Positions 59,679 to 63,932 of a DNA stretch of 64,000 nt are shown piece by piece. Location of the stretch: the NCBI RefSeq assembly GCF_949769195.1, contig NZ_OX458333.1, positions 620,001 to 684,000 of the forward strand, read 5' to 3'. Position 1 is the first letter of the stretch. Every line of letters starts with the position of its first letter. This DNA is from Methylocaldum szegediense (GTDB lineage Bacteria; Pseudomonadota; Gammaproteobacteria; Methylococcales; Methylococcaceae). Under the pieces are notes generated by a model that searched no databases, had not been told where the DNA came from, and saw only the letters and a list, made by a program, of their open reading frames with translations. The position numbers were made by a program, and so were the translations under genes.

Positions 59679-61208
59679 TCAGGCTTTCTTTCTTAGCGGC
59701 ATCGCATTGGTATCCACGATCACCGGCCAGTCCGTCCTCCGGGGTTTCGCAGATGATTTCGCGGTAAGCGCATCTCTCAGCTCGTCGGTGTCCCGACCAT
59801 CGAAGATGTAGGTGCGATCGCGGCCTTTCATCTTGGCGATGCGACATGCCGAATCAGCGTCCCGTAGCACGGACGCGGCATTGCCGCCCGCGGCCCTCAA
59901 CGCCGTGATGCCGATGCTGACGCTTATCCATAAGTCTTTTCCCGCCCAGGACAGAGAACAGTTCTTGACGGCGTCCCTGAGGTTGTTTGCGACGATCCAC
60001 GCCCGTTCGAGTGGACAGTTTTCCAGCAACAGGCCGAATTTATCACCGCCAAGTCTCCCGAGAATGTCGCTCTGTCGCAATCGTCGTTCCAAGGCATCTC
60101 CTACGGATTGCAGCAGTCGGGTGCCGGCAGCGCTCCCATATGTGTCGGTGAAAATTTTGAAATGATCGAGGTCGAGATAGCAAAGCACATGCTCGGCTTG
60201 GCTTTCTCGGGAGGAAGCCAAAAGATATTCCAGGTGCTGCTCGAATTCGACACGATCGCACAGCGTACGGTCCGGATTGGCGTTCGCGACCCGGAGCACG
60301 CTAGCTTCTTTTTGCAGTCGTGCCGCACGCTCGGCTTCCAGCTCATCGAGTCGCCGGCGATACTGCTCCAGTTCCCGTTCCAGTGCCTTATCTTTGTCGA
60401 TGTCGACGAGCGTTCCTTGCAGGAACAGCGGGTGTCCGGCGTCGTCTCGAACGATATCGGCCTGATCGCGCATCCAGCGCACCTTGCCGTCGTGGGTGAT
60501 CACGCGGTATTCGCAATAAAGCGGCACGTGACGCTCATACGTCGTCGCGAACTGTTCGATTACCGCCTCCCGGTCGTCAGGATGGATCCACTTGAGTAGC
60601 CCGATGCCTAGCGGGTCATCCAGCCAGGTTTCGGGACTGTAGCCGAGCTGCCTTGTCTGTGGGCTTACGTACAGCAGCTTTCCAGGCGCTTCCAGCGAGG
60701 CGATGTAGGTGATCGCGGGAATTTGCTCCACCAGCGCGCGGTACTTAGCTTCCGCCTTCCGCAATTGTTCCAGAGCTTCGTTTTTTTCCCTCAGAAGTCG
60801 AATCCGGCTGACGTCGTGGGCGATCAGATCCGGAAGCCGGTGCGCGAATGAGGGATCAAGGGGTTCCGCAAGATAGTCCGCGACAAGGTTCTTAGGGACA
60901 CCGGTTATAGCTGCTGCACTCTCCTCGGACCTTACTACAATCACCGGAGCGAGGTCCTCGCCCACGTTCGCAGCCAAGTCGGCGAGCAAATCGCGTGTGT
61001 CGAAATCCGGCAGTTGTCCATCGACCACGATGCAATCGGGCGCCTCACTTCGGATCAATTTCAGCCCTTGACGGCCAGTGCTGGCTTCGACGACCTCGAA
61101 GCGATAGGTCGAATGCCCCTCGAGCGCCTGTTTATAGTTTCGGCGACACTCGGGATCACTGTGGATGAGCACGAGGCGAATAATCGGTGTCATGTTGATG
61201 GAGTTCAT
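59679..61208 (-). CDS. Receiver-PAS-GGDEF protein with degenerate GGDKF site
   Basis: This encodes 509 residues. An N-terminal CheY-like segment (IIRLVLIHSDPECRRNYKQAL, CIVVDGQLPDFD) is followed by a PAS domain with PAC (RDDAGHPLFLQGTLVDIDKDKALE). A GGDEF-type domain holds LCYLDLDHFKIFTDTYGSAAGTRLL. The signature reads GGDKF, with Glu replaced by Lys, whereas the RxxD site RQSD upstream is kept. Cyclase activity is therefore doubtful, but c-di-GMP binding is possible. Confidence 0.88.
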   Translation of the reverse strand: MNSINMTPIIRLVLIHSDPECRRNYKQALEGHSTYRFEVVEASTGRQGLKLIRSEAPDCIVVDGQLPDFDTRDLLADLAANVGEDLAPVIVVRSEESAAAITGVPKNLVADYLAEPLDPSFAHRLPDLIAHDVSRIRLLREKNEALEQLRKAEAKYRALVEQIPAITYIASLEAPGKLLYVSPQTRQLGYSPETWLDDPLGIGLLKWIHPDDREAVIEQFATTYERHVPLYCEYRVITHDGKVRWMRDQADIVRDDAGHPLFLQGTLVDIDKDKALERELEQYRRRLDELEAERAARLQKEASVLRVANANPDRTLCDRVEFEQHLEYLLASSRESQAEHVLCYLDLDHFKIFTDTYGSAAGTRLLQSVGDALERRLRQSDILGRLGGDKFGLLLENCPLERAWIVANNLRDAVKNCSLSWAGKDLWISVSIGITALRAAGGNAASVLRDADSACRIAKMKGRDRTYIFDGRDTDELRDALTAKSSAKPRRTDWPVIVDTNAMPLRKKA

Positions 61209-61980: not shown

Positions 61981-62478
61981 TCAGACCAGGCTTTTACGCT
62001 GCTTCGGTTCAGGACATGAGGAGGTACCTTCAAATTTCCAGATGAGCTGCGCACAGCGAAACGCCATGGCTGCGCGGGTTTCCACTCCGAGCTTGGAAAA
62101 GATCCTGCGGAGATAGCTGGCTACCGTCCATTCGCTAATATGCAGTTTATAGGCGACGAGTTTGTTGGGATAACCCATCGCCACAAGGGCGGCGATCTGC
62201 AGTTCTCTTGCAGAGAGTAATGTGGCGAGGTCGTCGCGCTCGCTGGCGTCGTTGGAATTGTTTTGGATTACGGTGTAGGCTTCGCCGTTGATCGTGAAGT
62301 TTGCGATTACGGAGGTTCGTTCCTCACCCGAGTGTTTAGGGATGGCCGCTTTTTCGGCGTATTCTGGCGAAGGAGTCCTCACAATCTGGCATGAGCGCCC
62401 GGCAATGGTAAATTCGCAGACAACGTCGGCGGGATAGGCTGGGTTGAACGTCGATGTCGGATACTTGCTGTTCTTCAT
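61981..62478 (-). CDS. LuxR-type transcriptional regulator
   Basis: This encodes 165 residues from the ATG at 62478, preceded by GGGGGA. The C-terminal GerE helix-turn-helix is LLSARELQIAALVAMGYPNKLVAYKLHISEWTVASYLRRIFSKLGVETRAAMAFR. The N-terminal part has two similar short beta motifs, EFTIAGRSCQIVRTPS and NFTINGEAYTVIQNNS, not a known receiver or autoinducer domain. The leader upstream is long and rich in hairpins. Confidence 0.82.
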   Translation of the reverse strand: MKNSKYPTSTFNPAYPADVVCEFTIAGRSCQIVRTPSPEYAEKAAIPKHSGEERTSVIANFTINGEAYTVIQNNSNDASERDDLATLLSARELQIAALVAMGYPNKLVAYKLHISEWTVASYLRRIFSKLGVETRAAMAFRCAQLIWKFEGTSSCPEPKQRKSLV

Positions 62479-62508
62479 GAACACATCCCCCTGAACTTTA
62501 CTCACCAG

Positions 62509-62644
62509 GCCCGTAAATCCTCTCCTGGCATTTACGGGCTGCTGCCTAGGCCGGTACAGCCCCGGCCAGGCCTCACGCGGCTTGTCGCCGCGGCGGGGCA
62601 TCCGTGCCCCGAATTAACCTGGCCGATATTTCAGGCCGGGTTAA
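62509..62644 (-). ncRNA. Candidate five-hairpin structured leader of the luxR gene
   Basis: On the minus strand five inverted repeats follow one another: 62614-62624 with 62634-62644; 62595-62599 with 62606-62610; 62576-62581 with 62587-62592; 62544-62554 with 62562-62571; and 62509-62518 with 62530-62539. Stems are 5 to 11 bp and mostly perfect. The region lies directly upstream of the luxR ATG. It could be a cis-regulatory RNA or a palindromic repeat. No known riboswitch class was recognised. Confidence 0.4.
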
Positions 62645-62909
62645 TAGAGCGTCTTTGTATCGAGTGTGGGCGAATTCGTTCGCTTCGGGCGCTCTGAGCG
62701 TGCAAATTCATTCGCCCGTAGGCCGTATACAAACCGGGAATGCTCTAAGTACATTCCGCCAAGACCTCCGGAACCTCGACAGATTGATTGGGTTGGTGGG
62801 GTTCTCCTGCAGTGCTGCTTATGTGTCACCGCCGATGTAGAAATGACCCCTGACACCGAAGTAAATTTGACCCCTTGGGGGAAAATGGCGGCTTTTTTGA
62901 GCCGCGGAA

Positions 62910-63932
62910 ATGTTGACTCAGGAGCAGTCAGTGGAGATCAAAGTATTGGCCCGACAGGGCCATGGCATCAAAGCCATCGCGCGGGAGCTGGGCGTCTCGC
63001 GCAACACGGTACGCAAGTACCTGCGCAGCGAAAGCGCGTTGCCCCGGTACCGGCTGCGGGCGCCCCGCCCCTGCAAGTTGGATCCCTTCAAAGCCTATCT
63101 GCAGCAACGCATCGAGGCGGCACGTCCGCATTGGATTCCGGCCACGGTGCTGCTGCGAGAGCTTCGTGAACGGGGCTATGCAGGCGGCATCAGCCAGCTC
63201 AAGGCGTATCTCGCCCCCTTCAAACGGCGACCGGAAGAACCGGTGGTCCGCTTTGAAACCCCACCGGGCCGCCAGATGCAGGCCGATTTCACGACGATCC
63301 GGCGGGGGCGCGATCCGCTCAAAGCCTTCGTGGCCACGCTGGGGTTCAGTCGCGCCACGTTCGTGCGCTTTTCCGACCGCGAGGACAGCGCGGCCTGGTT
63401 GACGGGGCTGCGCGAGGCCCTCCACTACTTCGGCGGGGTGCCCGAAGAGGTGCTGTTCGACAATGCCGGCGCCATCATCACCGAACGGGACGCCTACGGT
63501 GAAGGCCGGCACCGCTGGCACCCGGCCCTGTACGCGCTGGCCGGGGCGTATGGCTTCCGGCCCAAGGTCTGCCGGCCGTACCGGGCCCAAACCAAGGGCA
63601 AGGTGGAGCGCTTCAACGGATACCTGAAAGCCAGCTTCATCACGCCACTGGCGGCCACGCTCAAGAGCGCCGGCTTGACACTCGATGTCGAGACCGCCAA
63701 TGCCCAGATCGGCCCCTGGCTCGATCAGGTGGCGCATCAACGGGTGCACGGCACCACCGGCGTACAGCCCGCGGTGCGATTGGCCGAAGAGCGCCTCGCC
63801 CTGCGGCCGTTGCCGGTTCAGGCACCCCAAGGCTTGCCGGCACCCCAGCGGCACGTTGGCCGCGTCTTGCCCCATGACAGCCTGCAACATCCCCTGTCGG
63901 TGTACGACCAGTTGCTGGAGGTGACGGCATGA
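62910..63932 (+). CDS. istA: IS21 transposase IstA
   Basis: This encodes 340 residues. The helix-turn-helix is VEIKVLARQGHGIKAIARELGVSRNTVRKYL. The rve core has MQADFTTIRRG (first Asp), VLFDNAGAIIT (second) and KVERFNGYLKASF (Glu). It looks intact. The stop overlaps the istB start as ATGA. Confidence 0.95.
   Translation: MLTQEQSVEIKVLARQGHGIKAIARELGVSRNTVRKYLRSESALPRYRLRAPRPCKLDPFKAYLQQRIEAARPHWIPATVLLRELRERGYAGGISQLKAYLAPFKRRPEEPVVRFETPPGRQMQADFTTIRRGRDPLKAFVATLGFSRATFVRFSDREDSAAWLTGLREALHYFGGVPEEVLFDNAGAIITERDAYGEGRHRWHPALYALAGAYGFRPKVCRPYRAQTKGKVERFNGYLKASFITPLAATLKSAGLTLDVETANAQIGPWLDQVAHQRVHGTTGVQPAVRLAEERLALRPLPVQAPQGLPAPQRHVGRVLPHDSLQHPLSVYDQLLEVTA

Follow-up and report, generated by a model that had tools for sequence, protein, structure and literature searches.

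An IS630-type MITE with a class-wide five-hairpin core and putative CsrA/RsmA-binding loops in Methylocaldum szegediense

The five consecutive hairpins that precede a small luxR-type gene in Methylocaldum szegediense represent, judged by sequence comparison, a single insertion of an IS630-group MITE, a non-autonomous transposable element. On the same grounds, their core is assigned to a lineage that extends across the class and has covarying stems and conserved H1 and H4 apical loops. The element is probably a transposable, RsmW-like RNA module that binds CsrA/RsmA; its mobility and architecture can be read from the DNA, while binding is predicted from the loops. The link to luxR is probably incidental.

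Folding of the luxR leader gave five stems in tandem (H1–H5) spanning 62508–62645 of the window, i.e. the whole 64-kb stretch of DNA that was analysed (Table 1). The five hairpins described upstream of luxR in the initial annotation are thus present at that place: on the plus strand the 181-nt region folds at -92.4 kcal/mol, compared with -66.9 +/- 4.8 for dinucleotide shuffles (z -5.35; 0 of 200 shuffles fold as well), and the minus strand gives a z of -4.35. The frame at 62601–62479 had been called non-coding, correctly so, since this stretch consists of the element plus the luxR 5' leader. The further statement that neither a known riboswitch nor a terminator accounts for the array also holds. 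At cut-off, no Rfam family matched anywhere in the 64-kb window, and no curated riboswitch or cis-regulator reached its gathering score for the array; permissive Rfam scans of the region returned only a chance-level microRNA match, and neither a U tract nor a terminator call was found inside the element. The luxR ATG (62478, minus strand) lies 20 nt from the element end, with a Shine–Dalgarno-like CAGGGGGAUGUG (62491–62480, containing AGGGGGA) between the two. No promoter-like site was found near the window copy, which is weak evidence either way on transcription of a small RNA.

Table 1. Hairpins, mobile element and adjoining gene at the luxR locus (window coordinates).
Feature	Position	Strand	Remarks
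Hairpin H1	62508-62540	+	Minus-strand loop CCAGGAGAGG, GGA at 62525-62523; loop GGA in 44/54 class-wide copies
Hairpin H2	62544-62571	+	Loop without GGA
Hairpin H3	62576-62592	+	Loop without GGA
Hairpin H4	62594-62611	+	Minus-strand loop CACGGAUG, GGA at 62603-62601, ANGGAN hexaloop; 52/54 class-wide copies
Hairpin H5	62613-62645	+	Right-hand terminal repeat in inverted duplication
Five-hairpin mobile element (MITE)	62499-62646	+	Body 62501-62644; TA at 62499-62500 and 62645-62646 is the target duplication
Left terminal repeat	62499-62512	+	TACTCACCAGGCCC, degenerate in the window copy; consensus TATTAATCAGGCCC
Right terminal repeat	62634-62646	-	TATTAACCCGGCC, identical to the terminal 13 bp of the IS630-family IS in G017
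Small luxR-type gene (GerE domain)	61981-62478	-	Element occupies its 5' leader

Other mobile sequences and a signalling gene lie nearby. An inverted-repeat stretch, GAGCGTCTTTGTAT...ATACAAACCGGGAATGCTC, is located between TA dinucleotides at 62646–62740, abuts the five-hairpin element and is probably a third small mobile repeat. The adjacent segment (62737–62860) is the left part of another dispersed MITE with the ends CTAAGTACATTC/GAATGTACTTAG, apparently cut off by an adjoining IS21 element (transposase 62910–63932); this MITE is intact, at ~104 bp, in loci L289 and L294 of Methylocaldum sp. 14B (G001), where it occurs at more than 30 places. A response regulator with PAS and GGDEF domains is encoded near the luxR-type gene (59679–61208, minus strand).

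The element is a dispersed repeat in the Methylococcaceae. A search of the host genome with the region found ~40 further places. Identity was 75–86% over the full length for many of them and fell to ~71% for the partial or most diverged matches. The same two ends recur across the matches, yielding a consensus of 151 bp, TTATTAATCAGGCC...GGCCGGGTTAATAG; the limits of the window copy were set by alignment with 54–160 other copies having these ends and by empty sites in relatives. Searches with a covariance model, in which scoring was limited to the top 150 candidates of each genome so that the counts are lower bounds, detected at least 44 copies in the host, 70 in G001, 53 in G002, 33 in G003, 60 in G007 and 25 in G006, with a few each in G005, G012, G017 and G031. 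Over ten species of the family there are more than 250 copies. Those of Methylocaldum sp. 14B are 97–99% identical to the consensus, indicating recent spread. No match to the element was found among plasmids, phages and IMG/VR viruses. When the joined flanks of the window copy were used as query, only the flanks in its own genome and an unrelated repeat were recovered, and the other three species of the genus do not share the site. Individual copies occupy varied positions, including the inside of a transposase gene and of a conserved coding gene in G002 (L118 and L155) and a site shortly upstream of a tRNA-Ala-like gene in G001 (L096).

This dispersal bears on how the array at the luxR locus is to be read. 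The initial annotation had offered a novel cis-acting RNA and an unusual clustered repeat as alternatives, and had named copies scattered without link to regulators as one refuting result. Copies are scattered genome-wide with no tie to luxR genes, so the repeat half of that proposal stands and the luxR-linked leader does not, while a structured RNA is retained in a modified sense. The hairpins fill the leader, are highly structured and end 20 nt from a start codon, as a riboswitch, attenuator or thermosensor acting on luxR might. Dozens of copies nevertheless occur at other sites and in either orientation, some within genes and some between convergent ones; no Rfam riboswitch matches, and the site is not common to the other species of the genus. 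A luxR leader RNA or riboswitch as the origin of the array was rejected on the dispersed copies and the lack of an Rfam match, and a cis-acting role of this kind is extremely improbable. A terminator or mRNA-stabilizing repeat of the REP/BIME type is scarcely more probable: strong GC-rich hairpins, mostly near gene ends, would suit it, whereas there is no U tract or terminator call, placement relative to genes is as chance predicts, and the ends are of IS630 type with a TA duplication rather than REP ends. Both the terminator (no U tract, no placement bias) and a REP/RAYT origin (element ends and TA duplication that fit IS630) were accordingly discarded. An integron attC site was also dismissed, as the repeat geometry, with 33 bp between core-like ends, does not fit.

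The assignment to the MITEs follows from several properties taken together: the element is short, lacks a transposase gene, is dispersed with fixed ends, duplicates TA, has empty sites in relatives and shares its terminal repeats with IS630. Both ends read TATTAAYCMGGCC inwards. A pyrimidine precedes the left TA in 71 of 73 copies and a purine follows the right TA in the same proportion (71/73), so the target is YTAR with duplication of TA. Where G000 has the empty site GGAAT-TTAG-ATAAC, the T and the G of the target are separated by the element in G002. Two additional comparisons of empty with filled sites give the same result, and in one of these the element has inserted into a coding gene. 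G017 carries five identical copies of a 1116-bp sequence that is bounded by the ends of the element and encodes a 345-aa transposase. This transposase scores 238 bits against the NCBIfam IS630 model NF033545 (cut-off 100) and is also well above the cut-off of Pfam DDE_3. The right end of the element is identical to the terminal repeat of this IS at 13 of 13 positions and the left end is similar; the left end of a second, decayed IS630 in G017, TATTAGCCGGGCCCTTAAATACCC, is close to the element left end, TATTAATCAGGCCCGTAAATACCC. Hairpins H1 and H5 are inverted duplications of the terminal repeats. No intact partner IS was found within the genus, where only transposase remnants of ~50% identity or less occur (G000–G003); the intact partner sits in another genus of the family (G017). 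A partner transposase in the same genome is usual for a MITE, though not required, given that it may act in trans or be lost. In view of the IS630-matching ends and the TA duplication, an IS630-type transposase most likely moves the element by cut-and-paste at TA. A second MITE of ~117 bp with the same IS630-type ends, TATTAATCCGGCCCTTAAATACCC...GGGCCGGGTCAATA, occurs in G003 (L195 1501–1620, L197 1582–1700 and L199); its core is a different palindrome that contains TTCGACAAGCTCAGGGCGAACG.

The five-hairpin architecture extends well beyond the family. Because RNAalifold gave a poor consensus on alignment A1, a fold of the consensus sequence supplied the structure. A first covariance model, built from 69 Methylococcaceae copies and searched over 301 genomes of the order, detected ~8 divergent copies of a 170-bp element in G063, which belongs to another family of Methylococcales. 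These have the same five hairpins with rewritten stems, and keep the H1 loop (UCCUG) and the H4 loop (CAUCCNUG); across the two families, 34 of 54 pairs have changed on both sides. A second model, combining the copies of Methylococcaceae and G063, was run over 369 genomes of the class and identified full-length matches in 18 further genomes from ~15 families (best E value per genome 3e-6 to 9e-16), several with 3–7 copies, and none in 349 genomes. Most of the class matches show five hairpins when folded independently. In an alignment of 54 copies, covariation is 0.629, compared with 0.161 for shuffled alignments and at most 0.111 when partners are slid. Pairing holds in 93% of cells, and both sides have changed in 49 of 53 pairs. 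Class matches are likewise repeats, as copies within a genome agree at 0.66–0.91 (median) inside the element and mostly far less outside it; the exception is G319, where three of its copies are close neighbours. These lie ~245 bp apart (L366 221–860), the last directly beside a tRNA gene. The terminal repeats of class copies are of at least three types (TATTAACCNGGC, TTARGGAAGCTCTGAATAA and TTAACAGGMTGTTGAAAA) that differ between host groups, which indicates that the lineage shares its core and not its transposon ends. The covariation check proposed in the initial annotation therefore has a divided outcome: the signal is weak within the genus and very strong across families of the class, with two loops kept, and on the latter basis the hairpins appear to form a genuine, evolving structure, one that is part of the mobile element rather than of luxR.

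Once inserted, copies in the Methylococcaceae look largely neutral, so that the link to luxR would be incidental or at most a local co-option. Based on crude ORF calling, they lie between convergent (24), divergent (23) and tandem (47) genes at the frequencies expected by chance, with unbiased orientation relative to tandem (26 vs 22) and downstream-lying genes (copy upstream, 34 vs 27). Of 521 private stem substitutions, 323 break a pair. C>T plus A>G changes number 82 and G>A plus T>C changes 92; this lack of strand asymmetry argues that no transcribed strand is favoured. Selection keeping the structure in inserted copies was rejected on these data, given the modest covariation within the family (46 double-changed cells vs 20 shuffled) and the missing asymmetry. 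Copies do fold somewhat better than when their mutations are placed at random (mean z -1.03 +/- 0.19), an effect owed in part to stems having fewer substitutions than loops and to changes inherited within subfamilies. Special conservation of the GGA loops among inserted copies was rejected too, as these loops are no more conserved than the rest of the element in the Methylococcaceae (ranks 59–89 of 147). Some copies have cleanly lost single hairpins. The H1 loop of L022, L053 and L107 is exactly inverted, with CCAGGAGGG in place of CCCTCCTGG, which points to inversion between the two arms of a short palindrome.

The two conserved loops resemble binding sites of the global regulator CsrA/RsmA. 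On the minus strand, which is the luxR-sense strand at the window locus, the H4 loop reads CANGGAUG in 52 of 54 copies and in all 25 genomes and the H1 loop AGGA in 44 of 54 copies and 21 of 25 genomes, a conservation that is partly circular because the class-wide set was found with a model already holding both loops. One copy that lacks both (L345) still scores 63 bits, limiting this circularity without removing it. Loop GGA is otherwise present in 0 (H2), 2 (H3) and 5 (H5) of the 54 copies. A minus-strand transcript would carry several apical-loop GGA motifs, a feature of RsmW and the Csr-Rsm decoy RNAs (clan CL00106). Published CsrA/RsmA sites include the CAGGA(U/A/C)G form of CsrB, the SELEX consensus RUACARGGAUGU and ANGGAN hexaloops (PMC7652899), as well as CANGGANG (PMC6849547), and the H1 and H4 minus-strand loops fit these forms. 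The spacing of the two GGA motifs (~75 nt) is beyond the published range of CsrA bridging, 10–63 nt (PMC7652899), and the stems are longer than those favoured in SELEX.

A connection to CsrA/RsmA had been considered before the class-wide copies were scanned with Rfam. In that scan, RsmW (RF02809) matched six copies over the whole model, always on the element minus strand, with E values of 0.00037, 0.00085, 0.0096, 0.025, 0.06 and 0.18; at 30–41 bits (best 41.2), the scores are below the gathering score of 52, and membership in RsmW is therefore not claimed. The matches come from three genomes, with none on Methylococcaceae copies, and are independent of the covariance model that holds the loops. 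The related RsmV gave weak matches. RsmW carries GGA on outer stem loops, binds RsmA at 11.5 nM and derives from the 3' UTR of PA4570 (PMC4950607); it is considered 'probably of independent evolutionary origin' (PMC7366521). No paper joining CsrA with MITEs in this manner was found in a literature search that covered few subscription journals.

These observations are consistent with the following mechanism. Terminal repeats would be recognized by an IS630-type transposase, or by other transposases in other hosts, which moves the element into YTAR sites; this is the step that the ends, duplications and empty sites support. The minus strand would be the conserved strand, and its transcript, in the order H5-H4-H3-H2-H1, would present GGA in the H4 and H1 loops and may bind one or two CsrA/RsmA dimers, similar to RsmW and CsrB-type RNAs. 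Such RNA would arise mostly by read-through from neighbouring promoters. Source elements may benefit from CsrA/RsmA binding, for instance if it titrates CsrA or renders transcript insertions tolerable; in that case selection would maintain the fold among lineages that spread, whereas most copies decay or drift after landing. At the window locus, the luxR sense transcript has GGA at 62603 (H4), 62525 (H1) and 62488 (ribosome binding site). Since the two loops lie shortly upstream of a ribosome binding site that itself contains GGA, local control of luxR by CsrA is possible, though such control is probably incidental and is not implied by the mechanism.

The main competing explanation is an ordinary MITE with passive hairpins, whose stems are kept or repaired at the DNA level only, through quasi-palindrome correction or as an aid to excision or replication, and whose GGA loops persist by descent or DNA recognition. 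Near-neutral decay of inserted copies, with its pair-breaking stem substitutions and lack of strand asymmetry, is expected under this explanation, as is the absence of orientation bias; the H1 loop inversions and clean losses of single hairpins are DNA-level palindrome events that also favour it. It nevertheless leaves unexplained why only two of five loops stay constant over 25 genomes amid rewritten stems, and it does not account for the RsmW matches. We regard it as rather unlikely, and retain a transposable CsrA/RsmA-binding module as the probable explanation. A bolder extension of the latter, which we offer tentatively and with some doubt, is that a gammaproteobacterial lineage of CsrA/RsmA-binding RNAs became transposable, comparable to the SINEs derived from small RNA genes, its core being taken up by several unrelated transposon ends and multiplying to dozens of copies in each genome. 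On this view, the RsmW RNA of Pseudomonas aeruginosa would be a domesticated copy.

Several known systems are close to the element. The RUP element of Streptococcus pneumoniae, a 107-bp MITE mobilized by IS630-Spn1, is similarly short and non-autonomous, has a TA target and IS630-matching terminal repeats, and is likewise often found in intergenic or IS sequence (PMC2229807). It differs in sequence and host, and no GGA-loop module has been described for it, whereas the present element has five separate hairpins and each of its ends is a palindromized IS end. RsmW arranges its hairpins in the same order, the first and the last of them bearing apical-loop GGA, but is described as a single small RNA from the PA4570 3' UTR (PMC4950607), unlike the dispersed copies described here with their terminal repeats and fifth hairpin. 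Hairpin-loop GGA, in part of the CAGGA(U/A/C)G form, is also found in the CsrB and RsmX/Y/Z RNAs, while the element has only two GGA loops and is mobile. Correia/NEMIS, ERIC, CIR and QMITE are mobile repeats of 100–200 bp with folding transcripts, and RNAs of NEMIS and ERIC affect mRNA processing (PMC2229807); however, most form one long end-to-end stem, and none has been reported with CsrA/RsmA-type loops or with one core under different transposon ends.

Binding of CsrA/RsmA by the minus-strand RNA would mean that transposons scatter sites for a global post-transcriptional regulator across bacterial genomes. This would provide a ready route for rewiring of the Csr/Rsm network and a possible origin of orphan decoys such as RsmW. 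Should CsrA not bind, a five-hairpin fold that is conserved by covariation while its transposon ends are of several unrelated kinds would still suggest a role of the fold itself in the spread of a mobile element.
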